A stretch of 27,779 nucleotides of DNA from a virus: positions 1 to 27,779 of IMG/VR virus record IMGVR_UViG_3300042453_001855; one strand, written 5' to 3'. The notes beneath the pieces are model-generated. The model saw only the letters and a list, made by a program, of their open reading frames with translations. It searched no databases and had not been told where the DNA came from. Below are positions 918 through 11,006 of the stretch, piece after piece (position 1 is the stretch's first letter; every line of letters begins with the position of its first letter). The position numbers and the translations under genes were made by a program.

Positions 918-939
918 AAAAATTAAAAACTTCTTTGTA

Positions 940-972
940 ATTGTACTCGATTAAGTTTAAGAGAAAGTTAAA
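940..972 (-). promoter_or_regulatory. Candidate Pho box plus -10 of pstS
   Basis: Read on the minus strand, CATTTAACTTT and CTCTTAAACTT follow each other with an 11-bp period and end 5-6 bp before TACAAT (940-945). There is no TTGACA. Direct repeats with an 11-bp period overlapping the -35 region are the layout of PhoB-type activator sites, and cyanobacterial Pho boxes are CTTAA-rich. The match is by eye and imperfect (about 7 of 11 positions agree between the repeats). Confidence 0.5.
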
Positions 973-983
973 TGTCACCAAAC

Positions 984-1011
984 ACCAAAAAACCTCCCCG
1001 AAAGGAGGTTT
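984..1011 (-). terminator. Rho-independent terminator after the porin
   Basis: On the minus strand the stem AACCTCC / GGAGGTT (1004-1010 with 991-997) is followed by a short run of T. It begins about 20 bp after the porin stop codon and separates porin from pstS transcription. Confidence 0.85.
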
Positions 1012-1029
1012 AGAGGTATCAGGATATTA

Positions 1030-2508
1030 TCAGAACCTGAAACTGGTCTGAATCACACCACCGTAGTTAGAAGATGCGTTCTTAAATGCCTGATTATTGG
1101 AGACATAGAAGATTGCAGGGGTGATGCTGATGTTATCACTAACCTTGTAACGATAGAAGGCTTCCCACATCAGAGCATCCTTACTCAGGGTAGGTGCATT
1201 GCCAGGTTGACCGATGGCGAAACCAGAGGCATTACCCTTAGCAAACACATCGCTCCACTGAACGCCTGCCATCCAAGTCTGAGAGTTGGTTGCAGCATTA
1301 GGAGTTGCAGGACCACTCACATAGTTCCAACCATAAGCAGCACTCACAGAAGGAATAATACCAGAGGTCTTAGGTTGCCAGTAAGCATTCAGAGCATAAC
1401 CGTTGGAGGTTTGGTTAGCGGCAAGAGTACCAGCATTACCAGCAACACCATTAAAGGTACGAACGCGAGTGCCTTCAGTACCATTACGATAACCAAATGC
1501 GATACCGTACTGAGGAGCACGATAACCGAACTGTGCCAGAGTATTCAGAGCACCAGAGGCATCAAATTCACCTTTGGTAGAATCAGAACCGTTCTGAGCA
1601 ACATAGTTCAGGTTAGCAACGAAACCTTTCTTACCTGCTTGTGCCCACTGAGCACCGAAACCAGAACCAGTTGCCTTGTTGTAGACACCAGGAGCACCAG
1701 CAACAGCAAAGAAGTCAAGAACATCCGACTTATAAGCAGTAGGAATCCATGCCATCTCAGTGTTCCGAACCAGAGCACCAGCAGTCAGGGTTACGCCCTT
1801 AGCAAGTGCTGGGAAACTGTAGTACAGACGATCAAGATTGACTTGGTTCGCATAAGATTCTGCCTTATCCAGTTTGAACAGAGAAGAGGAAGAACCGAAA
1901 GGTTGCGAAGAGAAGTTACCAGAACGCAGACGAGTGCGAAGCAGGTCCTTACCAGTGAACGAAGTGTCAAAATTCAGACGAAGATCGTAGTTAAATGCAG
2001 TGTTGCCAACGTTAGAATTGTTAGCAAGACGAGCACCTTCTACGCCACCAAGAACAAAGGTTGCTTCACCCTTGAGTTTGGTTGTGGTAGAGAACTGAGT
2101 TGCCTGAAGTTGACCAACCTGAGTTTCCAGTTTAGCAACACGACCACGAATGACAGTGAGTTCATTAGAGAACTCATTCATCAGACGAGAAAGTTCATCA
2201 GTAACTTCAGTTACACGATCAAGGCAAGCATTCAGAAGTGCTGCTGCCTCAAAACGGGTCATTGACTTACCACCACCATAGGTGCCATCTGGATAACCAG
2301 CAACACATCCATAACGCTCAACAAGATTATTGAGTGCCTGATATGCCCAATCAGTGGGCTTTACATCAGACAATTGAGTGATACTCGAAACCTGCTCAGA
2401 AGAAGTGTATTGGTTGACTGCTGCCATATTAAGGTCTGCCGCATTCGCAGCAACAGGAGCAACCATTCCCAGAGCAACAGGTGCAAGCATCAGTTGTTTG
2501 AGTTTCAT
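1030..2508 (-). CDS. Cyanobacterial-type outer-membrane porin (SLH + OprB-like)
   Basis: A 492-residue protein with a Sec signal peptide (cleaved near ANAA at 21-24). An S-layer homology domain follows at about 46-100 (LSDVKPTDWAYQALNNLVE, YPDGTYGGG, MTRFEAAALLNACLD). Next come a short coiled coil (about 100-135, ELTVIRGRVAKLETQV) and a long beta-strand-rich barrel ending in SFRF, the C-terminal aromatic signature of outer-membrane proteins. This is the architecture of cyanobacterial Som porins, which anchor the outer membrane to peptidoglycan through SLH and pass small solutes. It lies directly upstream of pstS on the same strand and shares with it the first codons MKLK and about 20 bp around the ATG. 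It is very probably a host-derived auxiliary gene that could raise solute uptake during infection, possibly of phosphate because of the neighbour. Substrate is unknown. Confidence 0.92.
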   Translation of the reverse strand: MKLKQLMLAPVALGMVAPVAANAADLNMAAVNQYTSSEQVSSITQLSDVKPTDWAYQALNNLVERYGCVAGYPDGTYGGGKSMTRFEAAALLNACLDRVTEVTDELSRLMNEFSNELTVIRGRVAKLETQVGQLQATQFSTTTKLKGEATFVLGGVEGARLANNSNVGNTAFNYDLRLNFDTSFTGKDLLRTRLRSGNFSSQPFGSSSSLFKLDKAESYANQVNLDRLYYSFPALAKGVTLTAGALVRNTEMAWIPTAYKSDVLDFFAVAGAPGVYNKATGSGFGAQWAQAGKKGFVANLNYVAQNGSDSTKGEFDASGALNTLAQFGYRAPQYGIAFGYRNGTEGTRVRTFNGVAGNAGTLAANQTSNGYALNAYWQPKTSGIIPSVSAAYGWNYVSGPATPNAATNSQTWMAGVQWSDVFAKGNASGFAIGQPGNAPTLSKDALMWEAFYRYKVSDNISITPAIFYVSNNQAFKNASSNYGGVIQTSFRF

Positions 2509-2537
2509 AAAAATGTTTTATGTACTATAGGACAAAT

Positions 2538-2559
2538 GAGGTTTTGTAGATAAAACCTC
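2538..2559 (-). promoter_or_regulatory. 5'-UTR hairpin of the porin mRNA
   Basis: A perfect 8-bp inverted repeat (GAGGTTTT / AAAACCTC, 6-nt loop) lies 30 bp upstream of the porin ATG. There is no T-tract, so it is more likely an mRNA-stability or translation element than a terminator. Function inferred only from position. Confidence 0.45.
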
Positions 2560-2561
2560 AG

Positions 2562-2590
2562 TATTTAGAGAGTCTTAAGCAAATCTTAAG
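2562..2590 (-). promoter_or_regulatory. 11-bp-periodic repeats upstream of porin (candidate Pho box)
   Basis: On the minus strand CTTAAGA (2584-2590), CTTAAGA (2573-2579) and CTAAATA (2562-2568) recur at exactly 11-bp intervals. The period and the CTTAA core recall cyanobacterial Pho boxes and resemble the repeats before pstS. The third unit also resembles a phage late promoter (CTAAATA), so the two readings compete. Confidence 0.4.
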
Positions 2591-2598
2591 ATGGAAGT

Positions 2599-2627
2599 AT
2601 CTTACAGCACTTTTGGTCTTATGTCAA
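2599..2627 (-). promoter_or_regulatory. Sigma70-type promoter upstream of the porin
   Basis: TTGACA (2622-2627), 17-bp spacer, TAAGAT (2599-2604) on the minus strand. The start point would be near 2592, giving a leader of about 85 nt that contains the periodic repeats and the hairpin. Confidence 0.7.
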
Positions 2628-2644
2628 CTAAGATTTGGTTAAGA

Positions 2645-2716
2645 AGCGGATTAGGGGATTCGAACCCCTGACGAACTGCTTGGAAGGCAGCCATTCTACC
2701 ACTGAATTAAATCCGC
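2645..2716 (-). tRNA. tRNA-Gly(TCC)
   Basis: Cloverleaf with acceptor GCGGATT/AATCCGC, anticodon loop CTTCCAA, T arm AGGGG-TTCGAAT-CCCCT and discriminator T. No encoded CCA. Last tRNA of the array in the direction of transcription. Confidence 0.96.
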
Positions 2717-2720
2717 AATG

Positions 2721-2770
2721 GTGGGGATTTACCCAGCCTCAGGTTTCCCTTCACAGGCACGGAACCCCAC
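2721..2770 (-). ncRNA. Closed hairpin element between tRNA-Thr and tRNA-Gly
   Basis: The 50-nt spacer segment is closed by GTGGGG/CCCCAC, with GGTTCC/GGGAAACC pairing inside. It is not a tRNA (no anticodon or T arm). It is transcribed from the promoter at 2797-2825 together with tRNA-Gly. Function unknown. Confidence 0.4.
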
Positions 2771-2796
2771 GCACTTCACTTCACACGGACATGAGA

Positions 2797-2825
2797 AGTA
2801 TAAGACATAATAAAAATTATGTCAA
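2797..2825 (-). promoter_or_regulatory. Sigma70-type promoter with inverted repeat, before tRNA-Gly
   Basis: TTGACA (2820-2825), 17-bp spacer, TATACT (2797-2802). An 8-bp perfect inverted repeat GACATAAT/ATTATGTC with 4-nt loop (2804-2823) covers the -35 and spacer, as an operator could. The -35 touches the end of tRNA-Thr. Confidence 0.75.
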
Positions 2826-2896
2826 GCCCCCGACAAGATTCGAACTTGCGACCAGCGGTTTACAAAACCGCTGCTCTACCACTGAGCTACAGAGGC
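2825..2896 (-). tRNA. tRNA-Thr(TGT)
   Basis: Acceptor GCCTCTG/CGGGGGC (two G-T pairs), anticodon loop TTTGTAA, T arm GCAAG-TTCGAAT-CTTGT. No encoded CCA. Confidence 0.94.
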
Positions 2897-3022
2897 AAAT
2901 GAGTAGTGAGTGCCCACCACTCGCGGAAGACACTCTCCGCAACTAGCGGGGGTGATCAAATCCCCGACCTAAGAAATCTTAGGATTTAGTAAGGAAGACC
3001 CGAATATTTCCAGACCTTCCGA
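2897..3022 (-). ncRNA. Spacer with five consecutive small hairpins
   Basis: The 126-nt gap holds no ORF worth calling but several short stems: GAGT/ACTC near 2901-2922, GCGGA/TCCGC (2923-2940), CGGGG/CCCCG (2947-2966), CCTAAG/CTTAGG (2968-2983) and GGAAG/CTTCC (2993-3020). They may be tRNA-processing or RNA-stability elements. No function can be assigned. Confidence 0.35.
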
Positions 3023-3095
3023 CTGGGGCGGCAGGGATCGAACCTGCGACCTAGATGTTAACAGCATCCCGCTACTACCGCTGAGCTACACCCCA
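3023..3095 (-). tRNA. tRNA-Asn(GTT)
   Basis: T1-A72 acceptor TGGGGTG/CGCCCCA with discriminator G, as usual for bacterial Asn tRNA. Anticodon loop CTGTTAA, T arm GCAGG-TTCGATC-CCTGC. Confidence 0.95.
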
Positions 3096-3115
3096 ATATT
3101 TGTTTTTATGTGTAA

Positions 3116-3158
3116 GGGAAAGGAGAGCTCTTGGACGGAACCGCAGGATCACTTTCCC
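3116..3158 (-). ncRNA. Closed hairpin element between tRNA-Ala and tRNA-Asn
   Basis: A 43-nt spacer segment closed by a perfect 7-bp stem GGGAAAG/CTTTCCC (3116-3122 with 3152-3158). It resembles in layout the 2721-2770 element. No function known. Confidence 0.35.
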
Positions 3159-3160
3159 AG

Positions 3161-3231
3161 TGGAGAATAGCAGAATCGAACTGCTAATAAGTGCTTGCAA
3201 AGCACCCGTTATACCGTTTAACTAATTCCCC
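3161..3231 (-). tRNA. tRNA-Ala(TGC)
   Basis: Acceptor GGGGAAT/ATTCTCC places G3 opposite T70, the G3:U70 alanine identity pair, with discriminator A. Anticodon loop TTTGCAA. No encoded CCA. Confidence 0.94.
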
Positions 3232-3235
3232 AAAT

Positions 3236-3310
3236 TGGAGGCGGGGGGTGGAGTTGAACCACCTACCTGAAGCTTATGAGACTTCTGTGCAACCATTACA
3301 CTTCCCCACG
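3236..3310 (-). tRNA. tRNA-Met(CAT), initiator-like acceptor
   Basis: Anticodon loop CTCATAA; an encoded CCA (3236-3238) fixes the 3' end. The acceptor is CGTGGGG/CCCCGCC, so positions 2-7 pair and position 1 is an unpaired C1xC72. An unpaired 1-72 position and the CGxGGGG...CCCCGC sequence are hallmarks of bacterial initiator tRNA. The anticodon stem (GAAGT/GCTTC) lacks the three G-C pairs of a classical initiator. Could be an initiator or a hybrid Met tRNA. Confidence 0.9.
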
Positions 3311-3374
3311 ATGAAGGGTTAAGTGTGATACACCTCATCAGGATGTAACAGGGACTCAACCTCCAACAATTTAT

Positions 3375-3403
3375 ATATTAAGGTATTTCCAAGAGTTTGT
3401 CAA
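3375..3403 (-). promoter_or_regulatory. Sigma70-type promoter with inverted repeat, before tRNA-Met
   Basis: TTGACA (3398-3403), 17-bp spacer, TAATAT (3375-3380). The 8-bp inverted repeat AAGGTATT/AATACCTT (3380-3387 with 3402-3409) spans the whole promoter core. It lies just downstream of the HNH gene and restarts transcription of the distal tRNA block. Confidence 0.8.
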
Positions 3404-3430
3404 TACCTTTGAACCAGTTTAAAAAGTGTC

Positions 3431-3901
3431 CTACTGAAAGAGATATTCTTTCCATTCAGAAACTTTTGTTTTCTGAAGATCCAAAACTACTCGACTAATT
3501 GGAGATTCTGGAGTCTTTTGTAAAACCATATTGGTTTCTTTAAGAAGTTTATCTCCTTTTTTAAGATTACAATCTGTGCAGCAAGCAACCAAATTTTCCC
3601 AAGTATCTTGACCACCTTTAGAACGAGGAATTACATGGTCGATTGTAAGATCATTTTTAGATCCACAATACTGACATTCATAATCATCCCGTTTATATAT
3701 CAGTGCTCTCGTTGGGTAATTAGATTTTCCATAGGAAAATGGAAGTTTCACATAATTTACCAAACGAATAATTCTCTTGGAAATGAGTTTTGCCTTTTGT
3801 TTAAAGAGCAAAACAATTGCACGTTTCCAATTAGTAAAGTGTAGTGGTTCGTAAGAACTATTCAGAACTAGTACAATCGAATGTGGTTCTACTAATTCCA
3901 T
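3431..3901 (-). CDS. HNH endonuclease inside the tRNA array
   Basis: 156 residues. A zinc-binding HNH module lies at about 74-115: CQYCG (C76, C79), TIDHVIPRSKGG (D88, H89), WENL (N102) and CCTDCN (C108, C111). The N-terminal half (NSSYEPLHFTNWKRAIVLL) matches the stand-alone HNH proteins widespread in cyanobacteria and their phages. HNH enzymes cut DNA with a metal-bound beta-beta-alpha site. Position between tRNA-Arg(ACG) and tRNA-Met suggests a mobile, homing-type insertion in a tRNA array, though a host-derived nuclease is equally possible. The ATG at 3901 follows TAGGAAA. The nuclease fold is clear; the target is unknown. Confidence 0.9.
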   Translation of the reverse strand: MELVEPHSIVLVLNSSYEPLHFTNWKRAIVLLFKQKAKLISKRIIRLVNYVKLPFSYGKSNYPTRALIYKRDDYECQYCGSKNDLTIDHVIPRSKGGQDTWENLVACCTDCNLKKGDKLLKETNMVLQKTPESPISRVVLDLQKTKVSEWKEYLFQ

Positions 3902-3938
3902 TTTCCTATCACACCTCTATTGATATTTAGATTTAAAA

Positions 3939-4013
3939 TGGCACCCTGAGAGGGATTTGAACCCCCGACTTCTTCGTTCGTAGCGAAGCACTCTTCCACT
4001 GAGTTACCAGGGC
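3939..4013 (-). tRNA. tRNA-Arg(ACG)
   Basis: Acceptor GCCCTGG/TCAGGGT with discriminator G and encoded CCA. Anticodon loop CTACGAA, T arm GGGGG-TTCAAAT-CCCTC. Needs A34-to-inosine editing by host TadA to read all CGN codons. Confidence 0.93.
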
Positions 4014-4014
4014 G

Positions 4015-4089
4015 TGGCGAAGGGTGAGGGATTCGAACCCCCATCGCAAGGTTTTGGAGACCTGCATCTTACCATTAGACCAACCCAAC
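4015..4089 (-). tRNA. tRNA-Trp(CCA) with acceptor mismatches
   Basis: Anticodon loop CTCCAAA, discriminator G and encoded CCA as in Trp tRNAs. With the 3' end fixed by CCA, the acceptor GTTGGGT/ACCCTTC has U2xU71 and U3xU70 mismatches. The other arms are normal apart from a C27xT43 mismatch. It may be functional with a weak acceptor, or decaying. Confidence 0.85.
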
Positions 4090-4093
4090 AAGG

Positions 4094-4166
4094 TGTCCGT
4101 GAGAGGATTCGAACCTCCAACACCTACCCCCTCAAGGTAGTGCCTCTTCCATTGGGCTACACGGAC
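4094..4166 (-). tRNA. tRNA with Leu anticodon GAG but class-I shape
   Basis: All stems are perfect: acceptor GTCCGTG/CACGGAC, anticodon stem CTACC/GGTAG, T arm GGAGG-TTCGAAT-CCTCT, discriminator A. The loop TTGAGGG gives GAG (Leu). The variable region is only GTGTT, whereas bacterial Leu tRNAs have a long variable arm. Amino-acid identity is therefore uncertain. Confidence 0.8.
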
Positions 4167-4170
4167 TTAG

Positions 4171-4242
4171 TTCCAGAACTAGGATTCGAACCTAGATGAA
4201 CGCCTTCAAAGGGCGGTGTCCTGCCAGTTAGACGATTCTGGA
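4171..4242 (-). tRNA. tRNA-Gln(TTG)
   Basis: T1-A72 acceptor TCCAGAA/TTCTGGA, anticodon loop CTTTGAA, T arm CTAGG-TTCGAAT-CCTAG, discriminator A. No encoded CCA. Confidence 0.93.
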
Positions 4243-4247
4243 ATAGG

Positions 4248-4323
4248 AGTTCAGGGTGGGATTCGAACCCACGATGATAGAAGTTTTGCAGACTTCCGCA
4301 TTCGACCACTCTGCCACCTGAAC
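4248..4323 (-). tRNA. tRNA-Cys(GCA)
   Basis: Acceptor GTTCAGG/CCTGAAC with discriminator T, anticodon loop CTGCAAA, T arm GTGGG-TTCGAAT-CCCAC. Confidence 0.94.
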
Positions 4324-4327
4324 AAAG

Positions 4328-4399
4328 AGCCCTCAGTGAGAATCAAACTCACGACCTCATTCTTACCAAGAATGCGTTCTATCACTGAACTATGAGGGC
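4328..4399 (-). tRNA. tRNA-Thr(GGT)
   Basis: Acceptor GCCCTCA/TGAGGGC, anticodon loop TTGGTAA. The T loop is TTTGATT instead of TTCGAAT (C56 replaced by T). Second Thr tRNA of the array; separated from tRNA-His by two bases. Confidence 0.92.
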
Positions 4400-4401
4400 G
4401 G

Positions 4402-4472
4402 GGTGACGTATGGGAATTGAACCCATCTGGGCGGTTCCACAAACCGCTGCCTTACCACTAGGATAACGTCAC
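4402..4472 (-). tRNA. tRNA-His(GTG)
   Basis: Acceptor GTGACGT/ACGTCAC with discriminator C, anticodon loop TTGTGGA, T arm ATGGG-TTCAATT-CCCAT. The base before G1 is T, so the usual His-specific G at -1 is not encoded in this register. Confidence 0.92.
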
Positions 4473-4473
4473 A

Positions 4474-4547
4474 TAGCAGTAGGTGGATTTGAACCACCGT
4501 CCATAGGAATATGAGTCCCGTACTCTACCAGACTGAGCTATACTGCC
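4474..4547 (-). tRNA. tRNA(CAT), elongator Met or Ile2
   Basis: Acceptor GGCAGTA/TACTGCT (G1-T72), anticodon loop CTCATAT, discriminator A. It could be elongator Met, or an Ile tRNA whose C34 is changed to lysidine by TilS. Sequence alone does not decide. Confidence 0.9.
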
Positions 4548-4551
4548 AAGG

Positions 4552-4634
4552 CGGAAGATGTTGGATTCGAACCAACGGAGGTTTTACCCTCACGGTTTAG
4601 CAAACCGCTGCATTAACCGCTCTGCCAATCTTCC
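4552..4634 (-). tRNA. tRNA-Ser(GCT)
   Basis: Acceptor GGAAGAT/ATCTTCC with discriminator G, anticodon loop TTGCTAA and a long class-II variable arm (GAGG...CCTC), as expected for Ser. Confidence 0.94.
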
Positions 4635-4647
4635 ATATCGTAGGTGT

Positions 4648-4731
4648 ATCATTTGAGAGGATTTGAACCTCCATTGCCGCCCTCCAAAACGCAAGTGCTA
4701 TGGCGGAGTGTTACCGTTACACTACAAATGA
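4648..4731 (-). tRNA. Pro-like tRNA (TGG) with a 20-nt anticodon loop
   Basis: Acceptor TCATTTG/CAAATGA, D arm GTGT/ACAC, T arm GGAGG-TTCAAAT-CCTCT and an anticodon stem CCGCC/GGCGG are all intact. The anticodon loop is 20 nt, ATAGCACTTGCGTTTTGGAG, instead of 7. Its last seven bases TTTGGAG would form a normal loop with anticodon TGG, implying a 13-nt insertion just 3' of the 5' stem strand. A normal tRNA-Pro(TGG) is present at 5218-5291. It may be a damaged copy, a decoy, or need processing. Confidence 0.65.
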
Positions 4732-4947
4732 TATCCTTACGTTGCTTACTCCTAGATTCTACTCATCAGATTTACTTGTTGGACCTAATCGTTGGAATAC
4801 TCGCTGCGTTCAACTTATTACCCTGTCTCGACTTGAACGAGACTGTTTTCTATAGCCTTTGCGTTTGTTAGTAATAAGCATACTGACAGGTTTCTTTTAC
4901 CTTTCAGTTTTCCGTTCAACCCAACTTTGGAATAAAGTTTGGGCAAG
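4732..4947 (-). ncRNA. 216-nt spacer with hairpins, no gene seen
   Basis: Between tRNA-Ile and the Pro-like tRNA. It contains GTCTCG/CGAGAC near 4827-4845 and CCCAACTTT/AAAGTTTGGG at about 4920-4944. No ORF has a convincing ribosome-binding site and no promoter match was found. It may be a processed leader or spacer RNA. Confidence 0.3.
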
Positions 4948-5019
4948 TGGAACCGACAAGATTTGAACTTGTGACCGCACCCTTATCAGGGGTGTGCTCT
5001 ACCACTGAGCTACGATTCC
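4948..5019 (-). tRNA. tRNA-Ile(GAT)
   Basis: Acceptor GGAATCG/CGGTTCC, anticodon loop CTGATAA, T arm ACAAG-TTCAAAT-CTTGT, discriminator A. Confidence 0.95.
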
Positions 5020-5140
5020 ATCAAGGTAGGAGTCGATATCAACAACCTACCAGTTTCAGTTTTCGGACTGAAAAACCTATCACTAACCAACCGAAGTTTC
5101 ATAACGGAGGAAGTGAATCTCCGTGACCATAAAGGTCAAG
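5020..5140 (-). ncRNA. 121-nt spacer with four hairpins
   Basis: Stems seen: GGTAGG/CCTACC (5025-5051), TTCAGT/ACTGAA (about 5055-5072), CGGAG/CTCCG (about 5105-5123) and TGACC/GGTCA (5124-5138). No ORF or promoter recognised. Similar in style to the other tRNA spacers. Confidence 0.3.
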
Positions 5141-5214
5141 AGGGAACAATCGGATTTGAACCGATAACACCATGATCTTCAATCATGTGCTCTACCAATT
5201 GGAGCTATGTTCCC
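5141..5214 (-). tRNA. tRNA-Phe(GAA)
   Basis: Acceptor GGGAACA/TGTTCCC, anticodon loop TTGAAGA, T arm ATCGG-TTCAAAT-CCGAT, discriminator T. Confidence 0.94.
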
Positions 5215-5217
5215 AAG

Positions 5218-5291
5218 TCCAGATGAAAGGATTTGAACCTCCGACTTCTCCGCCCCAAACGGAGCGCTCTACCAAACTGAGCTACACCTGG
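5218..5291 (-). tRNA. tRNA-Pro(TGG)
   Basis: Acceptor CCAGGTG/CATCTGG, anticodon loop TTTGGGG, T arm GGAGG-TTCAAAT-CCTTT, discriminator A. Canonical 7-nt loop, unlike the Pro-like tRNA at 4648-4731. Confidence 0.95.
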
Positions 5292-5292
5292 T

Positions 5293-5367
5293 TGGTATTC
5301 CTGAAGGGATTTGAACCCTCGTTTCCGCCTTGAAAGGGCAGCGTCCTAACCATTAGACGACAGGAAC
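5293..5367 (-). tRNA. tRNA-Glu(TTC)
   Basis: Acceptor GTTCCTG/CAGGAAT, anticodon loop CTTTCAA, T arm GAGGG-TTCAAAT-CCCTT, discriminator A and encoded CCA (5293-5295). Confidence 0.95.
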
Positions 5368-5373
5368 ATGATG

Positions 5374-5463
5374 AGAAAGACACCCCACACGAAGTCACTT
5401 ATGGATTACGCTTCGTAGCCTTATGAATCCTGCCATCATCCGATGGTGGTTAGAATGTCTTTC
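5374..5463 (-). ncRNA. Multibranched structured RNA candidate between tRNA-Asp and tRNA-Glu
   Basis: A segment of about 90 nt is closed by an 8-bp stem GAAAGACA/TGTCTTTC. Inside it are CCATC-GGAT-GATGG and GGATT...AATCC, and an ACGAAG that could pair with a downstream CTTCGT as a pseudoknot. It is not a tRNA. The following 5464-5565 holds another stem CGTCAT/ATGACG and no gene. Function unknown. Confidence 0.4.
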
Positions 5464-5565
5464 CCCAATTCCAGTTCTTGCTACGTCATTCCTTACCTAA
5501 CTGGCAACATTCAGGATGACGTGCTACAACCACCAAGGAGGGACACTCCATCGGCAGCGTAGCAA

Positions 5566-5638
5566 CGACCCTAACGGGATTCGAACCCGTGATACCACCG
5601 TGACAGGGTAGCGTGATAGACCACTTCACTATAGGGTC
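5566..5638 (-). tRNA. tRNA-Asp(GTC)
   Basis: Acceptor GACCCTA/TAGGGTC with discriminator G, anticodon loop CTGTCAC, T arm ACGGG-TTCGAAT-CCCGT. Confidence 0.95.
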
Positions 5639-5684
5639 AAGAGCACAATCCACTACCAATGGTATCATTGGGCAGATTATGCAG

Positions 5685-5773
5685 TGAGAGAAGAGGGAAT
5701 TGCACCCCCAACGGTTCTTATGTAACGCTTTTACAGAGCGCCGCCACACATATCTAATAGTAGCCTTTCTCCC
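5685..5773 (-). tRNA. tRNA-Tyr(GTA), divergent D and T loops
   Basis: Acceptor GGGAGAA/TTCTCTC, anticodon loop CTGTAAA and a class-II variable arm, as in bacterial Tyr tRNA. The T loop is TGCAATT (G55 instead of T55), and the D loop TATTAGATATGT has no GG pair. These are the partners of the D-loop/T-loop contact, and both are altered. Confidence 0.85.
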
Positions 5774-5776
5774 AGA

Positions 5777-5844
5777 TAGGTTCAATTGAGTTACGGCACT
5801 GAAGAGCATTAGATCTCCCCCAAGAGTCCGTTTCAAGAGAACCT
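5777..5844 (-). ncRNA. Structured spacer between tRNA-Lys and tRNA-Tyr
   Basis: AGGTTC and GAACCT near the two ends of the spacer pair across about 60 nt, with ACGG/CCGT nested inside. No ORF or promoter. Same closed-element style as other spacers. Confidence 0.3.
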
Positions 5845-5846
5845 AA

Positions 5847-5918
5847 TGGGACATCTCGGATTCGAACCGAGGACTAACCGGTTAAAAGCCGGATACTCTA
5901 CCGCTGAGTTAATGTCCC
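5847..5918 (-). tRNA. tRNA-Lys(TTT)
   Basis: Acceptor GGGACAT/ATGTCCC, anticodon loop CTTTTAA, T arm CTCGG-TTCGAAT-CCGAG, discriminator A. Confidence 0.95.
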
Positions 5919-5944
5919 ACATAATATGGATAAATATTCGGTTG

Positions 5945-5986
5945 TCTAGGTTCTTGGTCTCTCGACCACTTGGCTAATGTACCACC
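5945..5986 (-). pseudogene. Possible truncated tRNA 5' half
   Basis: On the minus strand the segment begins like a tRNA: GGTGGTA, then CA, then TTAGCCAAGTGGTCGAGA resembling a D arm. No matching T arm or 3' acceptor follows. It may be a decayed class-II tRNA. Weak call. Confidence 0.25.
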
Positions 5987-6035
5987 GTTTGGTCTCTGGG
6001 GAGGGACTGGTGGACACTTAGGAAACTGTCACAGA

Positions 6036-6075
6036 CAATAAAAAAGGGGAGGAAACTTTTGGTTTCTCTCCCCTT
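6036..6075 (-). terminator. Rho-independent terminator after the 32-aa ORF
   Basis: Long stem built of AAGGGGAG-GAAAC and GTTTC-T-CTCCCCTT (one bulged T), 5-nt loop. On the minus strand it is followed by TTTTTTATTG. It ends the transcript that starts at the promoter 6223-6251, so the tRNA block below needs readthrough or its own promoter. Confidence 0.85.
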
Positions 6076-6100
6076 CTTTTGCTTTTATGAATTAAACATC

Positions 6101-6199
6101 TTACATATGTCTATCCATATCCGCAAACAGGGGAGCACCCTCAATATGCCAATAACGGCAATCAAGAATGGTAAACTGTTTGGGCATTGGGTAAGACAT
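6101..6199 (-). CDS. 32-residue small protein in the tRNA array
   Basis: ATG at 6199, stop TAA at 6101-6103. The peptide starts MSYPMPKQFTILD and ends GAPLFADMDRHM. AGGT lies 8 nt before the ATG. A strong promoter ends about 24 bp upstream and a strong terminator begins about 25 bp after the stop, so this is a complete monocistronic unit between tRNA-Arg(TCT) and tRNA-Lys. No signal peptide or membrane segment is seen, and the family is not recognised. Confidence 0.6.
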   Translation of the reverse strand: MSYPMPKQFTILDCRYWHIEGAPLFADMDRHM

Positions 6200-6220
6200 T
6201 GTTTTCGACCTAAGTGTTAT

Positions 6221-6251
6221 TATTTATAAGACTTTTTTGTTAAAAAGTCAA
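6221..6251 (-). promoter_or_regulatory. Overlapping early and late promoter of the 32-aa ORF
   Basis: TTGACT (6246-6251), 17-bp spacer, TATAAA (6223-6228). The -10 is part of TATAAATA (6221-6228), the T4 late-promoter consensus. The unit could be read both by host sigma70 and by a gp55-type late sigma factor. Confidence 0.7.
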
Positions 6252-6252
6252 G

Positions 6253-6326
6253 CGCCTCAGGCAGGATTCGAACCTGCGGCCAACCGCTTAGAAGGCGGAT
6301 GCTCTAGTCCACTGAGCTACTGAGGC
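6253..6326 (-). tRNA. tRNA-Arg(TCT)
   Basis: Acceptor GCCTCAG/CTGAGGC with discriminator G, anticodon loop CTTCTAA, T arm GCAGG-TTCGAAT-CCTGC. First tRNA of the array, just after a consensus promoter. Confidence 0.95.
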
Positions 6327-6343
6327 ATATTTGGTATGTAGTT

Positions 6344-6372
6344 ATTATAGTGGGGGAAGGGTTTTCTGTCAA
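6344..6372 (-). promoter_or_regulatory. Consensus sigma70 promoter of the tRNA array
   Basis: TTGACA (6367-6372), 17-bp spacer, TATAAT (6344-6349): 12 of 12 consensus bases. A 10-bp stem GGGAGGGGTT/AACCCTTCCC (6354-6380) with the loop inside the -35 overlaps it. The stem may end the upstream lysozyme transcript or act as an operator. Expected start near 6337, about 10 bp before tRNA-Arg. Confidence 0.88.
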
Positions 6373-6393
6373 CCCCTCCCTCCTATTTAATTG

Positions 6394-7041
6394 TTAAACT
6401 TCTACCTTGATCAGACGGGATGCATAATCATGAGCATACGAAGTGCGAGCACCATGATGCCCCCAACCAATCCAACTATACGCATAGTCCATGTAACGAT
6501 TGATGGATTTACCAGGAGTTTTCATCCTGTCCTCAATTTCTTTCCATTGGACTTCATTCGTAAGATAACGAAGTTGCGTGTGAAGTGTTGATGGCGAACC
6601 ACCAAACCTCTTAGCAAAATCACCCAATCCATAATAACGATTGGCAGATGTCCATTGAATCAGTCCGTAACCGCCACCGCAGTTACTCCAACTGGTTCTG
6701 CTACCACCTTCACAAATGTTAGGAATAAAAGTTGATTCCTGACGAATATTACCCATAATGGTAGCAAGGGCGTTTCTGTCTTTAATACCACGATCCTGGA
6801 AATATGCCAGGGTAGCATTCTCATGTTCATTACACCCTTTACAAATAAGCCTTTTCTCTTTTGACTTTTCTGGTGCAACCTCGCGGATTGCTGTCTTTGA
6901 TGTAGGCTCCTCCTGAATAATACTGAAAGGTGGTTGTTTTGGACCTTCAACAGGTGGAGGAGGAAACACTTGGGGCAGTGTTGCCGTTGTGGTTGTAACC
7001 ATTGCTGCGAGAGGAACGGCTACTGTAAAGAAATTTTGCAT
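6394..7041 (-). CDS. Phage tail-type lysozyme with N-terminal anchor
   Basis: 215 residues. The N-terminus (MQNFFTVAVPLAAMVTTTTA) looks like a signal or anchor. A Pro-rich linker follows to about 65, then a lysozyme-like domain: ALATIMGNIRQESTF (E102 as likely catalytic Glu), GGGYGLIQWTSANR and a C-terminal YSWIGWGHH. These are features of the phage tail lysozyme family, which cleaves peptidoglycan during DNA entry. GGAG sits 5 nt before the ATG, and the ATG overlaps the stop of a 27-aa ORF (TAATG), suggesting translational coupling. Whether it is a virion-borne or a lysis enzyme is not decided by the sequence. Confidence 0.8.
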   Translation of the reverse strand: MQNFFTVAVPLAAMVTTTTATLPQVFPPPPVEGPKQPPFSIIQEEPTSKTAIREVAPEKSKEKRLICKGCNEHENATLAYFQDRGIKDRNALATIMGNIRQESTFIPNICEGGSRTSWSNCGGGYGLIQWTSANRYYGLGDFAKRFGGSPSTLHTQLRYLTNEVQWKEIEDRMKTPGKSINRYMDYAYSWIGWGHHGARTSYAHDYASRLIKVEV

Positions 7042-7124
7042 TAACTCCGATTGAACTCTACATCCGTATAGGAAAAGCGCACTTCCCCTTTCTCAAGGGG
7101 CAGATCCCACGGCTCTAATTTCAC
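7041..7124 (-). CDS. 27-residue ORF coupled to the tail-lysozyme gene
   Basis: GTG start at 7124 preceded by GAGAG with 5-nt spacing; the stop TAA shares one base with the lysozyme ATG. Peptide begins (M)KLEPWDLPLEKGEVRFS. Possibly a real small gene or a leader peptide setting translation of the lysozyme. Family unknown. Confidence 0.45.
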   Translation of the reverse strand: MKLEPWDLPLEKGEVRFSYTDVEFNRS

Positions 7125-7140
7125 ACTCAAACTCTCATAA

Positions 7141-7162
7141 TAAAAAACCCACATAAGTGGGC
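7141..7162 (-). terminator. Rho-independent terminator
   Basis: CCCAC-TTAT-GTGGG followed by TTTTTTA on the minus strand. It lies 40 bp after the stop of the 48-aa gene ending at 7204. Confidence 0.85.
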
Positions 7163-7203
7163 TGTTTTCATTATAAGTTAATATTTAGTTTTTTGCAAGC
7201 TAG

Positions 7204-7350
7204 TCACATACTAAGGTTTAGAATCTCTTCACGAAATTCTGCATAAACCGCACAAGCATTCAAGTAATCTCCCATTTCTGCGAGATAATGAAGTCGGTCA
7301 ATAACACTATCCTTCAGATCTTCAACGTTGTCAATGAGCTGATGTTCCAT
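7204..7350 (-). CDS. 48-residue hypothetical protein
   Basis: Chosen start ATG 7350 follows AGGAAGG with 9-nt spacing; a longer frame to 7419 lacks such a site. The protein is short, acidic and predicted helical (MEHQLIDNVEDLKDSV...AEFREEILNLSM). It overlaps the 3' end of the GIY-YIG gene by 20 bp and is served by the promoter at 7391-7419. Function unknown. Confidence 0.65.
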   Translation of the reverse strand: MEHQLIDNVEDLKDSVIDRLHYLAEMGDYLNACAVYAEFREEILNLSM

Positions 7351-7768
7351 GAAAGTAATCCTTCCTGTAGTAACGACCAAGTACGTTGCTATTGTAGTAC
7401 CGAGGTTCCCCTGTGTCAAGGGCCTCTGTCAGGACATTATTTAGGAACAACTGACGGGTTTCCTCATAGTTTGTTTTACCTACAGAATCATGTAGGGAGA
7501 TTATGAATCTTCTGAACCTATCTTTTCCGTATTTTTTGATGTCTTCTTTAAGCTCTGGACAGGATCCATAATACTTTTTCCAATCAGATTCCTGTTTAGA
7601 TCTTCTAGTTGCACCCTTCTTCTTTCTGAAACTCCAGAAATATTTTCTCCCAAAGTAACTCCGATTATTTTCAAGGCAGTCAATACGATAAACAAAACCA
7701 AAATGATCCTGAATATGATCTGACTCAAAAACCTCTCCATTATAGAGCCAAGGGTTTTCATAGCTCAT
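7331..7768 (-). CDS. GIY-YIG family endonuclease
   Basis: 145 residues. The GIY-YIG core appears as GFVYRIDC (24-31) and YFGRKYF (38-44), followed by a basic segment (FRKKKGATRRSK) and EETRQLFLNNVL, carrying a likely metal-binding Glu (102 or 103) and Asn110. The family makes DNA cuts in homing enzymes such as T4 SegA and in repair nucleases. Compact size without an added DNA-binding domain fits small Seg-like enzymes of T4-type phages. A late-type ATAAATAA site (7793-7800) lies upstream. Family call moderately sure; homing activity inferred. Confidence 0.75.
   Translation of the reverse strand: MSYENPWLYNGEVFESDHIQDHFGFVYRIDCLENNRSYFGRKYFWSFRKKKGATRRSKQESDWKKYYGSCPELKEDIKKYGKDRFRRFIISLHDSVGKTNYEETRQLFLNNVLTEALDTGEPRYYNSNVLGRYYRKDYFHGTSAH
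7391..7419 (-). promoter_or_regulatory. Sigma70-type promoter inside the GIY-YIG gene
   Basis: TTGACA (7414-7419), 17-bp spacer, TACAAT (7391-7396). It would start transcription near 7384, 35 bp before the ATG of the 48-aa gene. It lies in coding sequence, so chance is possible, but 11 of 12 bases fit. Confidence 0.6.
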
Positions 7769-7792
7769 AAAGCTCTTAGAATTATATGAGCC

Positions 7793-7800
7793 TTATTTAT
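7793..7800 (-). promoter_or_regulatory. Late-promoter-like site before the GIY-YIG gene
   Basis: ATAAATAA on the minus strand, 25 bp before the ATG; one base off T4 TATAAATA. Confidence 0.4.
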
Positions 7801-7831
7801 CCTTTGAACCCGGACAGAGTTATTTTACCAA

Positions 7832-7855
7832 TAAAAAAGGGGGTAGTCAACCCCC
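7832..7855 (-). terminator. Rho-independent terminator after the Ala/Pro-rich gene
   Basis: GGGGGT-TGACT-ACCCCC followed by TTTTTTAT on the minus strand, about 20 bp after the stop codon at 7877. Confidence 0.9.
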
Positions 7856-7876
7856 AGAGTTATATTTTAATTGTTC

Positions 7877-9442
7877 TCAACGAACATTAGCACGATACCA
7901 TTTCTCAAAATCCTCTCTACGCTTGTCACCTCTTGGTGGCATAGGAGTTTTTTCTCCACGAACCTTTTCATACTTCTTATCTTCTTTTTCATGACCTTCT
8001 GGATTCTCACGAGCTCTTTGAGCTTCTGAGAGTTCAAGTTCCTGAGCATAAATCTCAGCAACTTCTTCCCAAGTATAATCAGAAAGATCATAACCTTCTT
8101 CAATGAGTTCGTCAACCCAGGCTTCTAAATCTTCCTGGCGAAGTTTCTTTCTTCTTTGTTTCTCCATTTGCTTTGGAGAAAGATTAGCACCTTTTCCACG
8201 ATTAGCAGAAGGATCCCATCTTGGACCTGGTTCAAATTCTATTCCCTTCTTACCAGCAAACATTTTGATGCGTGCTCTTGTACCATCATCTGTTTTTGAT
8301 GATTCATCAATTACCTTTTGAATCCACTTCTCCATCTTCTCATTGATGTCAACTTCTTCTTTTGTCATTTTCTTTCTGGCAGCCTTAACCAGTTTTCTTA
8401 AGGGTTTTCTGGTAGCTTCTCTACTATCTCTTGATTGTTGCTTAACAACGGACTCAAGATCATCTTCATCATCATCCTCATCATCCATGTCACCAAGATG
8501 ATATCCATGTCTCTGAGACATTGTACCACCCTTGTCTTTTCTCTTTTCACTATCAGCAGGATGTCCTGATTGCATTGGGCCATGATCCTTTGAACCAGCC
8601 TTGTAACCAGGATGACCCTTGCCTCCAGTGAGTTCCATGATGATGGATTCTCTCCACTCTTCACTCATGTTTGCCATCATTACGAGTGCATTCTCTTCGG
8701 TCTCTGCATATCCTTCATCTAGAAGGTGACCTTTGACGAGATCAAAGATGTCAACACCAGCAGAAAGGTTTGTACCTTTCTTAGCGAGGTCAAATGCGGT
8801 CTTGGTGGTTGATGGTGCAGGAGCCTTAGGTGCAGGTAGGGAGGACTTCATATCCTTCATAAGAGGATTTGTAGTTGCACTGGTTCCTCTTGTGCGATCT
8901 CTCTCTGCCTTTGCAGCAGCAAGTTTTGGATTTGCTTTTGCCCACTGATCCATTGCAGATCCTGCGGGTTTTGCAGCAGGAGTTGCGGGTGGTTTTGCAC
9001 CAGATGGTTTTGGAACTGATCCACCAGCAGGAGTTGGTTTTGCAGCAGCAGTAGGAGCAGGTTTTGCAGCTGGGGTAGGAGTTGGTTTTGCAGCAGCAGG
9101 AGCAGCGGGTTTTGGTGTTGCTGGTTTTGCAGCAGCAGGAGAGGGTTTTGCAGCAGGCGCAGCAGGTTTAATTACTCCACCACCTCTAACATTTCTATTT
9201 CTTGTTATTGGAGCTTCCGGTTTTCTTCCTGCAGCATTTCCATAAAGAAGAGTATTACCTAAAGCAGCTCTATTTTTTGCAACATTAGCATCATAAGCCG
9301 CTCTAGCTTTTGGATCTGTAGGAGCACCACGCTCCATAAGTTGCTCTACATCCTCTTCTACAACTTCCTCTGAGAGAACCTCAGGGGTCTCGTAAACATG
9401 GGAATAGGCCTCCATGAGACCCTTGATTTCTTCTGCTCTCAT
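7877..9442 (-). CDS. Ala/Pro/Lys-rich virion-like protein
   Basis: 521 residues in three parts. The N-terminus MRAEEIKGLMEAYSHVYE... to about 90 is acidic and helical. A low-complexity linker of AAKPxPAA repeats spans about 90-170. The C-terminal half is highly charged, with an acidic DDEDDDEDD run near 325 and a Lys/Arg-rich end. The opening MRAEEIKGLMEAYSHVY recalls virion proteins of T4-like cyanophages, but I cannot name a function. It is a separate transcription unit with an ATAAATAA late site upstream and a strong terminator. Confidence 0.75.
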   Translation of the reverse strand: MRAEEIKGLMEAYSHVYETPEVLSEEVVEEDVEQLMERGAPTDPKARAAYDANVAKNRAALGNTLLYGNAAGRKPEAPITRNRNVRGGGVIKPAAPAAKPSPAAAKPATPKPAAPAAAKPTPTPAAKPAPTAAAKPTPAGGSVPKPSGAKPPATPAAKPAGSAMDQWAKANPKLAAAKAERDRTRGTSATTNPLMKDMKSSLPAPKAPAPSTTKTAFDLAKKGTNLSAGVDIFDLVKGHLLDEGYAETEENALVMMANMSEEWRESIIMELTGGKGHPGYKAGSKDHGPMQSGHPADSEKRKDKGGTMSQRHGYHLGDMDDEDDDEDDLESVVKQQSRDSREATRKPLRKLVKAARKKMTKEEVDINEKMEKWIQKVIDESSKTDDGTRARIKMFAGKKGIEFEPGPRWDPSANRGKGANLSPKQMEKQRRKKLRQEDLEAWVDELIEEGYDLSDYTWEEVAEIYAQELELSEAQRARENPEGHEKEDKKYEKVRGEKTPMPPRGDKRREDFEKWYRANVR

Positions 9443-9471
9443 TTTTCTACGATAAAGGGCTTGTTATATTG

Positions 9472-9483
9472 TTATTTATTTAT
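9472..9483 (-). promoter_or_regulatory. Late-promoter-like site before the Ala/Pro-rich gene
   Basis: Two overlapping ATAAATA motifs on the minus strand, 30-41 bp before the ATG at 9442, overlapping the stop codon of the upstream gene. Confidence 0.45.
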
Positions 9484-9913
9484 CTTCAGGTTTCCAAAAA
9501 CAATCAGTTCCTTCAAAAACTGGAGAACACATTCTCATTGGTGGTGCAAGTTTCTTACAATCCTCTGAGTAACATAAGGACTCATTATTTTCTTCTTCAA
9601 TGTATTGCGGCTTATATTTTTTGTCCGATTCTACAATGATGCGATCATATTCTTTTGTCACATCTTTTATAGCCTTATCAACATCTCTACCGACTCTGCG
9701 GTTTACTTTGTCAGGATCTTGTAGTATAATCTCATTAAGAATACCTTGCGGGAAATACTTTCTTTGAATTTCATCCAATAAGTCCCAAAGTCCATGTTCC
9801 GATACTCCTGTACATTGTGAAAGTGTTGTGATAATTGTTGATACTACAATTCCAACTATAATTAATTGTTTCTTATCTGGTTTTTTATTACCGAATTGAA
9901 AATTAAATTGCAT
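9476..9913 (-). CDS. Membrane-anchored hypothetical protein
   Basis: 145 residues. A Lys-rich N-terminus is followed by one hydrophobic segment (about 16-34, QLIIVGIVVSTIITTLS) and a charged, largely helical remainder (KAIKDVTKEYDRIIVESDKKYK) with four Cys near the C-terminus. The topology (short cytoplasmic tail, one membrane span, periplasmic domain) would fit an inner-membrane spanin (Rz-like), but no partner outer-membrane lipoprotein is evident. Divergent from the tail-fibre gene at 9986. Function unknown. Confidence 0.7.
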   Translation of the reverse strand: MQFNFQFGNKKPDKKQLIIVGIVVSTIITTLSQCTGVSEHGLWDLLDEIQRKYFPQGILNEIILQDPDKVNRRVGRDVDKAIKDVTKEYDRIIVESDKKYKPQYIEEENNESLCYSEDCKKLAPPMRMCSPVFEGTDCFWKPEDK

Positions 9914-9948
9914 TATTTAAAATCATCTTACTACTAGTTATATGCATC

Positions 9949-9956
9949 AATAAATA
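9949..9956 (+). promoter_or_regulatory. Late-promoter-like site before the plus-strand tail fibre
   Basis: AATAAATA, 30 bp before the ATG at 9986. GAGGA lies 6-7 nt before that ATG. Confidence 0.5.
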
Positions 9957-9985
9957 TAAAAATAGAGAAGGACTGAGGAAAATTA

Positions 9986-11005
9986 ATGTCTAGACTCGGG
10001 ATCAACACTGGTAACAATCCTAATGATGGTCAGGGCGATCCATTGAGAGTTGCAATGGGTAAAATCAATAGCAACTTTTTAGAACTTTATAGTACCTTAG
10101 GAGATGGTTTTACATTATCCAGTTACGTAACAACTGCAGGAATTTCCACTCTCGCTCAAGGTTTAACTGGAAATCCAAGAATTAATGTTAGTGGTATTTT
10201 AAATACTGGAATTACAACCACAGAACACATTGAAGTAAGAAATATAACATCAACTGGAGTTGTTACTGCAACTCAATTTGTCGGTGATGGGTCTCAACTC
10301 ACTAATGTTACTGCACTTGTTGGTGGATTAGAAGTATTGGATAATAATGTTAGAAAGGGTGTTGCGAGAGAACTTAATTTTGGTGATAACATAGAGTCAA
10401 CTGGCCCAGATGGAGTGGGAAGGGTAACTATTTCAGTTTCTTCAAGTATTGGAAGTAGTTCATTTACTGGTGCGGCTTCAACAATTACCACCACTCAGAT
10501 CTCTAATTGGAATACTGCATATAGTTGGGGTAATCATGCTTCTGCTGGATACTTGACAAATGTTAATATCTCTGCAGGTGCAAACATAGCCGTAGTAGAA
10601 ACCTCTGAAGGAAATTTTATTATTACTGCAACTTCTTCAGGTAGTGTTGGATCTGCAGGAACTTGGGCAGTTAATGCATCGGGTATTCATACATCTAAAA
10701 ATGTTGGTATTGGAACCACTGTTGCGAGTTCCGCTCTAACAGTAGAAGGTGATGGTAGATTCAGTGGAGTCGTTACTGCAACAAGATTTGAGAGTACTTC
10801 TTCAGGAACTCCAACAATTGATTCTCCAAATAACTTAAATATTAATGCAATTAATGTTGCAATAAGCACCGATATAACTATAGGCAGAGACGCTTATGTT
10901 GGTGTAAATACATCAAGTGGTCTTGTACTAACTTCACCAAATGGAACTCAATATAGATTAGTAGTTGACAATTCAGGAAACCTCAGCACAGTTTTAGTAC
11001 CGTAA
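9986..11005 (+). CDS. Tail-fibre-like structural protein
   Basis: 339 residues opening MSRLGINTGNNPNDGQGD and KINSNFLELYSTLGDG, the N-terminal module of many cyanophage fibre proteins (also at the start of the 17459-20281 protein). It is followed by beta-rich repeats such as GVVTATQFVGDGSQLT and VGIGTTVASSALTVEGDGRFSG, and ends YRLVVDNSGNLSTVLVP. Such proteins form thin trimeric fibres that contact the host surface. Start supported by GAGGA. One base separates its stop from the protease gene, so the pair is co-translated. Role in adsorption is inferred. Confidence 0.85.
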   Translation: MSRLGINTGNNPNDGQGDPLRVAMGKINSNFLELYSTLGDGFTLSSYVTTAGISTLAQGLTGNPRINVSGILNTGITTTEHIEVRNITSTGVVTATQFVGDGSQLTNVTALVGGLEVLDNNVRKGVARELNFGDNIESTGPDGVGRVTISVSSSIGSSSFTGAASTITTTQISNWNTAYSWGNHASAGYLTNVNISAGANIAVVETSEGNFIITATSSGSVGSAGTWAVNASGIHTSKNVGIGTTVASSALTVEGDGRFSGVVTATRFESTSSGTPTIDSPNNLNINAINVAISTDITIGRDAYVGVNTSSGLVLTSPNGTQYRLVVDNSGNLSTVLVP

Positions 11006-11006
11006 A

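Follow-up and report, generated by a model that had tools for sequence, protein, structure and literature searches.

A candidate leader-peptide attenuator in front of a cyanophage tRNA array

Introduction

Transcription attenuators of the trp/his type in bacteria consist of a leader ORF with control codons between RNA segments 1 and 2, of the alternative pairings 1:2, 2:3, and 3:4, and of a terminator with a U-run that precedes the operon. The locus described here, a short ORF in the tRNA array of a cyanophage, shares with them the leader ORF, the position of the control codons, the alternative pairings, and the U-run terminator. It differs in that the target is the tRNA array of a lytic-type phage rather than a biosynthetic operon, in that the core contains seven different codons once each, and in that the stop codon lies in the loop of the 2:3 hairpin.

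Regarding function, the nearest parallel is the trn operon of Anabaena, which contains 26 tRNA genes, has TrcR as its repressor, is silent in standard culture, and is switched on under translational stress (PMC10272220). Like the phage array, it is a large accessory tRNA operon; unlike it, control is exerted by a DNA-binding repressor, and the main text of that article uses none of the words attenuation, leader, and terminator. Nor did we find an attenuator of phage tRNA genes described in the open-licence PMC literature, as far as its text is available. According to the available part of one article, only S-CREM1, S-PM2, S-CBWM1, and S-CRM01 among the cyanophages exceed 20 tRNA genes, and S-PM2 lacks Cys and Phe tRNAs (PMC9964418); for S-PM2, 25 tRNAs, one of them a pseudogene, are given in the available part of another article (PMC3037559). 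Here, we argue that the short ORF probably serves as the leader peptide of an attenuator through which ribosomes control transcription of the phage tRNA array.

Results

The ORF within the tRNA array

The DNA analysed (27,779 bases of a virus record; hereafter, the window) represents part of the genome of a T4-like cyanophage (cyanomyovirus). The best DNA match in the phage collection was Synechococcus phage S-SRM01 (20% covered, 78.9%; window's first 25 kb). ARAGORN predicted 22 tRNA genes between positions 2645 and 6326, every one on the minus strand, and the ORF indeed lies inside this array, as the initial annotation had it (Table 1). The array also contains an HNH endonuclease (3431–3901, minus strand) and a tRNA-like gene (4646–4732, minus strand) whose anticodon was left undefined by ARAGORN, similar calls being made in some related arrays. 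A possible unusual tRNA-Tyr(GUA) at 5686–5773 (minus strand) was not called by ARAGORN and was matched only by a tRNA-Sec model, below the cut-off. In other phage arrays, ARAGORN reported tmRNA-like genes (L052, 8375–8674; L079, 7140–7439; L164, 1756–2075), which may be false.

Table 1. Features of the leader region and its surroundings (window coordinates).
Feature	Position	Strand	Basis
sigma-70-type (early) promoter TTGACA-17-TATAAT before tRNA-Arg	6344..6372	-	12/12 match; same arrangement in S-PM2
tRNA-Arg(UCU), upstream neighbour of the leader	6252..6326	-	ARAGORN; adjacent upstream in 46/82 cassettes
AT-rich inverted repeat between tRNA-Arg and late box	6230..6249	-	sequence; relatives
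T4-type late box TATAAATA (putative)	6221..6228	-	bases 22-29 before ATG; 81/82 cassettes
Shine-Dalgarno-like AGGT of the leader ORF (CTTAGGTCG)	6208..6211	-	in most, not all, relatives
leader ORF, MSYPMPKQFTILDCRYWHIEGAPLFADMDRHM, 32 codons	6101..6199	-	ORF list; frame conserved in relatives
segment 1 (ATGTCT and AAACAG pair with segment 2)	6173..6199	-	named 1:2 fold
core hairpin around codons Asp-Cys-Arg-Tyr-Trp-His-Ile	6142..6164	-	RNAalifold, named fold
segment 2, 5′ strand of the 2:3 antiterminator hairpin (predicted)	6107..6135	-	fold model, covariation
segment 3, 3′ strand of the 2:3 hairpin, overlaps terminator 5′ arm	6068..6099	-	fold model, covariation
intrinsic terminator (3:4) with U-run	6040..6079	-	folding, RNAalifold
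hairpin and boxA-like element before tRNA-Lys	5936..5968	-	relatives; cyanobacterial rrn spacer counterpart
tRNA-Lys(UUU), first gene of the downstream array	5846..5919	-	ARAGORN; first downstream tRNA in 76/79 relatives
downstream tRNA array, proposed target of the switch	2645..5919	-	ARAGORN

The 32-codon ORF is present where it had been noted initially, on the minus strand, which had been left unstated. By itself, it is unremarkable, being one of 110 ORFs of at least 30 amino acids that overlap positions 1–12000 of the window; a bare 32-codon ORF, judged without conservation data, is not beyond chance. The late box TATAAATA likewise occurs in the window five times, with 2.04 occurrences expected. 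Both are significant because they are conserved across cassettes.

Distribution of the cassette

The cassette is widespread in viral DNA, with at least 141 copies, 83 of which (including the window and S-PM2) are distinct over 300 nt. They were collected by pattern scans of viral contigs, which returned 41 stretches and then at least 119 (80 among the matches listed), and by a scan anchored on the neighbouring lysozyme gene (80 loci kept). Exclusion of one cassette, L042, from structure and codon counts left 82 distinct ones; after further exact duplicates had been dropped, the alignment comprised 76 sequences and the codon counts 69.

When annotated phages were searched by tblastn, S-PM2 gave a weak match to the leader (E 0.1); its DNA match had an E value of 1e-30. 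The cassette of this isolate has the same order of elements: TTGACA-17-TATAAT, tRNA-Arg(UCU), an AT-rich hairpin, TATAAATA, AGGTCG, ATG, an ORF with DCRYWHI, a terminator, a conserved block, and the next tRNA. In S-PM2, it is the opposite strand of the cassette that is annotated (p160, T4-GC853; AJ630128, 118191–118547, corresponding to 2815–3171 of L002, the S-PM2 locus), which is probably not a gene in the leader stretch: the antisense frame in phase with the leader has a pN/pS of 1.21 and internal stops in 3 of 69 sequences, versus 0.47 and 0 of 69 for the sense frame, and was therefore rejected.

Among six isolate genomes searched for the core motif with up to three mismatches, only S-PM2 contained it; S-CRM01, S-CBWM1, S-SRM01, DSL-LC03, and DSL-LC02 did not. 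S-CRM01 and S-CBWM1 have 37 and 36 tRNA matches, yet lack the motif, which counts against an attenuator; thus, phages rich in tRNA genes do not generally have the switch. A host origin of the leader was also considered: one pattern scan of bacterial and archaeal genomes returned 33 stretches (one cyanobacterial), none with TATAAATA in the 150 nt upstream and none resembling the peptide outside the pattern, and these were judged to be chance matches. A profile search for divergent leaders devoid of the core, covering the first 210 loci and the window, revealed no peptide without YWHI below E 0.28. PHROGs contained no family for the peptide of the window or of S-PM2; Pfam gave none for the former and one nonsignificant match (E 0.18) for the latter.

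Promoters upstream of the leader

The late site proposed by the initial annotation was recovered as TATAAATA on the minus strand, and in all 82 distinct cassettes (L042 excluded) a late box is located 27–30 nt upstream of the ATG, in the form TATAAATA in 81 and CATAAATA in one. Judged by this position before the gene, it is a putative T4-type late promoter. The initial annotation had further assumed that one −10 serves both an early and the late promoter. The window does contain TTGACT-17-TATAAA; among the cassettes, this notion is weakly supported, TTGACT at a spacing of 17 being found in 46 of 82, and a −10 common to both promoters is not general as judged from these sequences. TTGACTTTTT also belongs to an inverted repeat upstream of the late box, and perfect inverted repeats of at least 6 bp occur in the 34 nt before the late box in 63 of 82 cassettes (a raw count in an AT-rich stretch). 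In several relatives, the arms of the repeat at 6230–6249 differ yet remain complementary. A separate sigma-70-like promoter ending 4–9 nt upstream of the late box is present in 10 of 82 cassettes.

The clear early promoter of the window is the one before tRNA-Arg, with 12/12 positions matched. Transcripts from it would pass through tRNA-Arg and enter the leader ORF, making early read-in plausible. In 23 of 65 cassettes, the window and S-PM2 among them, the tRNA adjacent to the leader on the upstream side is preceded by a sigma-70-like promoter matching at least 10 of 12 positions. Sequences of the same quality (at least 10/12) were found directly before the first downstream tRNA in 35 of 79 cassettes; these could feed the array without the leader and so bypass the switch, which counts against an attenuator.

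Conservation of the reading frame

Frame-breaking changes, for which the initial annotation had suggested to inspect relatives, were encountered once: the frame is intact in 140 of 141 cassettes, the sole exception being L042, with a 1-nt deletion between ATG and core. Thus, as in an attenuator, a short ORF with conserved start, stop, and frame follows the putative promoter, the late box being found in 82 of 82; this conserved-frame ORF is, as initially noted, below the length at which genes are normally called. Over the 69 distinct ORFs, the sense frame contains no internal stop and has a pN/pS of 0.47; in the other five frames, pN/pS ranges from 0.72 to 1.25. By region, it amounts to 0.46 for codons 2–13, 0.01 for the core, and 0.89 for the C-terminal part (the last third); therefore, selection seems to act on the peptide in the first part of the leader and on the RNA in the last. 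This does not support the initial suggestion that the purpose of the unit is a protein made throughout infection. The spacing between ATG and core is 12, 13, or 14 whole codons.

The core, DCRYWHI, is encoded by the Asp, Cys, Arg, Tyr, Trp, His, and Ile codons at 6143–6163, between segments 1 and 2. Its amino-acid invariance is partly by construction because most relatives were fetched by patterns demanding the core residues, although most wobble positions were left free; all 17 loci found via the lysozyme gene, which were not conditioned on core residues, nonetheless show DCRYWHI. The core pN/pS, with the same reservation about search design, might be ascribed to nascent-peptide stalling, as exemplified by the TnaC and Erm leaders: DCRYWHI in the exit tunnel would arrest translation on a small molecule or a changed ribosome, and would thereby control the same terminator. 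We regard this as quite improbable, as the core is also explained by its hairpin and by codon sensing.

Mutually exclusive RNA folds

The strong terminator reported initially was confirmed as a hairpin followed by a run of six Ts, the stretch folding at −22.1 kcal/mol; a simple terminator scan gave the terminator hairpin on the plus strand only (6046–6071). Given the 76 distinct sequences without guidance, RNAalifold chose the core hairpin and the terminator, and neither 1:2 nor 2:3. The latter two structures were named from the fold of a single sequence (L001), a choice that biases the comparison with slid versions in their favour. In the 2:3 fold, in which the second half of the ORF pairs with the region after the stop codon and the 5′ arm of the terminator, 90.4% of the cells are paired, versus 43–59% in slid versions (76 distinct sequences). 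Seven of its pairs changed on both sides, which was matched by 1 of 500 shuffles, and its covariation score by none of 500. For 1:2 together with the core fold, the values are 91.2% versus 30–44%, the covariation score again being matched by none of 500 shuffles; the number of 1:2 pairs changed on both sides, eight, was matched by 46 of 500, which counts against it.

The 1:2, 2:3, and terminator structures are mutually exclusive because 1:2 and 2:3 both use alignment columns between 82 and 107, and the GGGGAG arm is common to 2:3 and the terminator. The cassette thus contains, as an attenuator does, an antiterminator that shares the 5′ arm of the terminator and a 1:2 alternative to it, albeit with neither picked by RNAalifold alone. 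An intrinsic terminator is also situated between leader and operon, with a tRNA within 1200 nt downstream in 79 of the 79 cassettes with sufficient room. The terminator is not merely an end, since the second half of the ORF is a possible pairing partner of its 5′ arm. This, together with the downstream array as the conserved partner (see below), does not support the self-contained unit of the initial annotation.

When the peptide was kept and synonymous codons were chosen at random, the self-fold of the native ORF ranked in the best 5% in 82 of 82 cases and the 2:3 hairpin in 60 of 82 (mean self-fold, −35.7 native versus −19.9 kcal/mol recoded; 2:3 hairpin, −27.9 versus −19.6). Shuffling the codons of segment 2 weakened the mean 2:3 duplex from −29.6 to −12.5 kcal/mol. 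Exchange of 2:3 partners between the two main lineages, A-RHM and B1 (at most 12 sequences per lineage), shifted −27.6/−27.5 to −20.5/−18.9. Combining segment 1 of lineage A with segment 2 of lineage B abolished pairing (−25.3 to −9.2). Counting against this specificity, the VGQM lineage has a segment 2 that pairs as well with most foreign arms, the DWDL sequence has an arm that tolerates most partners, and segment 1 of B (S-PM2-like lineages) does not prefer its own segment 2 over others. In 82 of 82 cassettes, the loop of the predicted 2:3 hairpin includes stop codon bases, despite three kinds of stop codon and a distance from core to stop of 18–20 codons.

These data bear on the view taken initially, namely, that the ORF encodes an ordinary small phage protein with its own terminator; on this view, RNA pairing would be a by-product. 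The conserved frame, the late box, the SD-like stretch, the terminator, and the overall pN/pS of 0.47 would all fit such a protein. It is nevertheless very unlikely, considering pairing far above that of synonymous recodings, the covariation, the invariable position of the stop codon at the hairpin loop, the C-terminal pN/pS of 0.89, and the strictness with which the ORF accompanies the downstream array.

Pairing in the core hairpin reaches 99.9%, and the UAU of its loop and its bulged U, despite being unpaired, are identical in 76 of 76 sequences. Together with the RNA-like evolution of the last third of the ORF, this might point to an RNA switch without a codon sensor, in which the same choice between 1:2, 2:3, and terminator would be made by a protein of phage or host, or by another ligand, bound to the core hairpin, with translation of the ORF being secondary. 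However, the frame kept in 140 of 141 cassettes, the whole-codon distances from ATG to core, the pN/pS of 0.46 over codons 2–13, and the SD-like stretch upstream of the ATG in most copies argue against it, and the invariance of the core stems partly from search design. We therefore consider a switch of this kind unlikely. Of the known RNA families in Rfam, only tRNAs reached gathering scores in the window; the region 5920–6251 gave three matches below the cut-off (best E 0.14). A T-box riboswitch or another Rfam family was thus rejected for the leader, no match being above the cut-off.

Linkage to the downstream array

Downstream, the tRNA that comes first is Lys(UUU) in 76 of the 79 cassettes with room, and Asp, Arg(ACG), or Arg(GCG) in the rest; three more cassettes end too soon. 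The adjacent upstream neighbour varies: Arg(UCU) in 46 of 82, Ala in 13 of 82, and others or none in the remainder. Since Lys(UUU) is nearly constant and the upstream neighbour variable, the conserved partner of the leader is the downstream array and not the upstream gene. The same linkage is observed among the 80 lysozyme-anchored loci: 17 contain tRNA-Lys(UUU), 16 of those with the ORF, and the 63 loci lacking this tRNA include a single one with the ORF (L094), near a contig end.

In the 39 cassettes with at least 3 kb downstream, tRNAs cognate to the core codons were counted within 3.6 kb: all seven were present in 3, six in 19, five in 13, and fewer in 4. Hence, 35 of 39 arrays hold 5–7 of the seven, although Tyr was found in only 21 of 39 and Cys in 14 of 39. 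In the array of the window, six of the seven were called, the seventh, Tyr(GUA), being the possible gene mentioned above. In six genes of the window (2359 codons), no amino acids are used less often than Cys, His, and Trp. The core contains one codon each for seven amino acids and no run of one, which counts against an attenuator, as do the Tyr and Cys tRNAs missed in many arrays and the lack of tRNA-Cys in S-PM2.

A boxA-like element behind the terminator

Past the terminator, at 5970–6036 of the window, a conserved block was noticed that looks structured (TGTGACA..AAGTGTC..CCAGAGAC..GGTGGT); it is missing in one lineage (e.g., L132, L159, L163, and L166). Closer to tRNA-Lys, an element resembling ACCTTGAAAACTG matches at 9 or more of 13 positions in 70 of 79 relatives, versus 4 of 79 for the reversed motif. 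The 13-mer is exact in S-PM2, and the copy of the window matches at 10 of 13 positions. The element resembles a boxA, and its arrangement with the hairpin resembles boxB-boxA of rrn operons. Among 59 genomes sampled from the phylum to which a genome with a Chamaesiphon locus belongs, 18 contain ACCTTGAAAACTGNAT (reversed control, 0), and the two sites examined are both located between tRNA and 23S rRNA genes. As in the phage, the cyanobacterial rrn spacer element consists of a hairpin followed by the 13-mer; the phage copy differs in preceding tRNA-Lys. The resemblance suggests that the phage array may borrow rrn-type antitermination.

Models of the switch

The effect of a ribosome on the leader was modelled with assumed footprint lengths. 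With RNA polymerase at the terminator loop, the expected number of 2:3 pairs was 22.9–23.2 with the A site at the codons from Asp to His, 20.0 at Ile, 0 with the ribosome at the stop codon, and 19.6 without a ribosome. In the latter state, 2:3 leads, and 1:2 exceeds it in only 11 of 82 sequences. Once the terminator is complete, it wins at equilibrium in 82 of 82 sequences without a ribosome (mean P 0.96), and a ribosome in the core leaves it ahead in the majority (mean P 0.77–0.93). Therefore, antitermination would need cotranscriptional kinetics, that is, formation of 2:3 before the 3′ arm of the terminator is made; known attenuators likewise rely on the antiterminator forming before the terminator is complete. 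Thus, in these models, switching is predicted at the loop stage for stall versus stop and not clearly for the untranslated state, and the equilibrium model does not show it.

Discussion

If the leader works as a ribosome-controlled attenuator, it would sit between the late promoter, with read-in from the upstream early promoter, and the main tRNA array. The sequences show the conserved frame, the mutually exclusive folds, their covariation, and the linkage to the array; that the leader is translated, that ribosomes stall on it, and that polymerase can read through is inferred. A ribosome delayed at the Asp-Cys-Arg-Tyr-Trp-His-Ile codons would hinder 1:2 and leave segment 2 free; the latter would pair with segment 3, the terminator would come too late to form, and polymerase would enter the tRNA array. 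A ribosome that has reached the stop codon, in the 2:3 loop, would block 2:3, so that the 3:4 terminator would form and transcription end. On an untranslated leader, 1:2 could form first, again favouring the terminator. As a result, the phage would raise late transcription of its tRNA genes whenever ribosomes have difficulty with scarce codons.

As the signal that stalls the ribosome, a shortage of tRNA is our first choice; it is the most likely but least shown step of the scheme, and we would give it somewhat less than an even chance. Phage tRNAs evade tRNA-targeting defences according to two articles that, in their available parts, mention no sensing switch (PMC10264068, PMC11555353); such evasion would explain why a phage should sense the loss of charged tRNA. 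A more specific and more tentative version is that the core acts as an OR-gate sensor: whichever of several charged tRNAs was lost, for example to a host anticodon nuclease, the ribosome would stall and the late replacement array would be turned on, the rrn-like box then carrying polymerase through the untranslated array. We consider this possible.

If the proposed mechanism is true, leader-peptide attenuation would act on phage tRNA genes, for which we found no description in the available text of the open-licence literature. It has long been asked why phages carry tRNA genes, and the switch would make the on-signal of the array directly testable. Because S-PM2, an isolated phage, has the cassette, such tests can be made.
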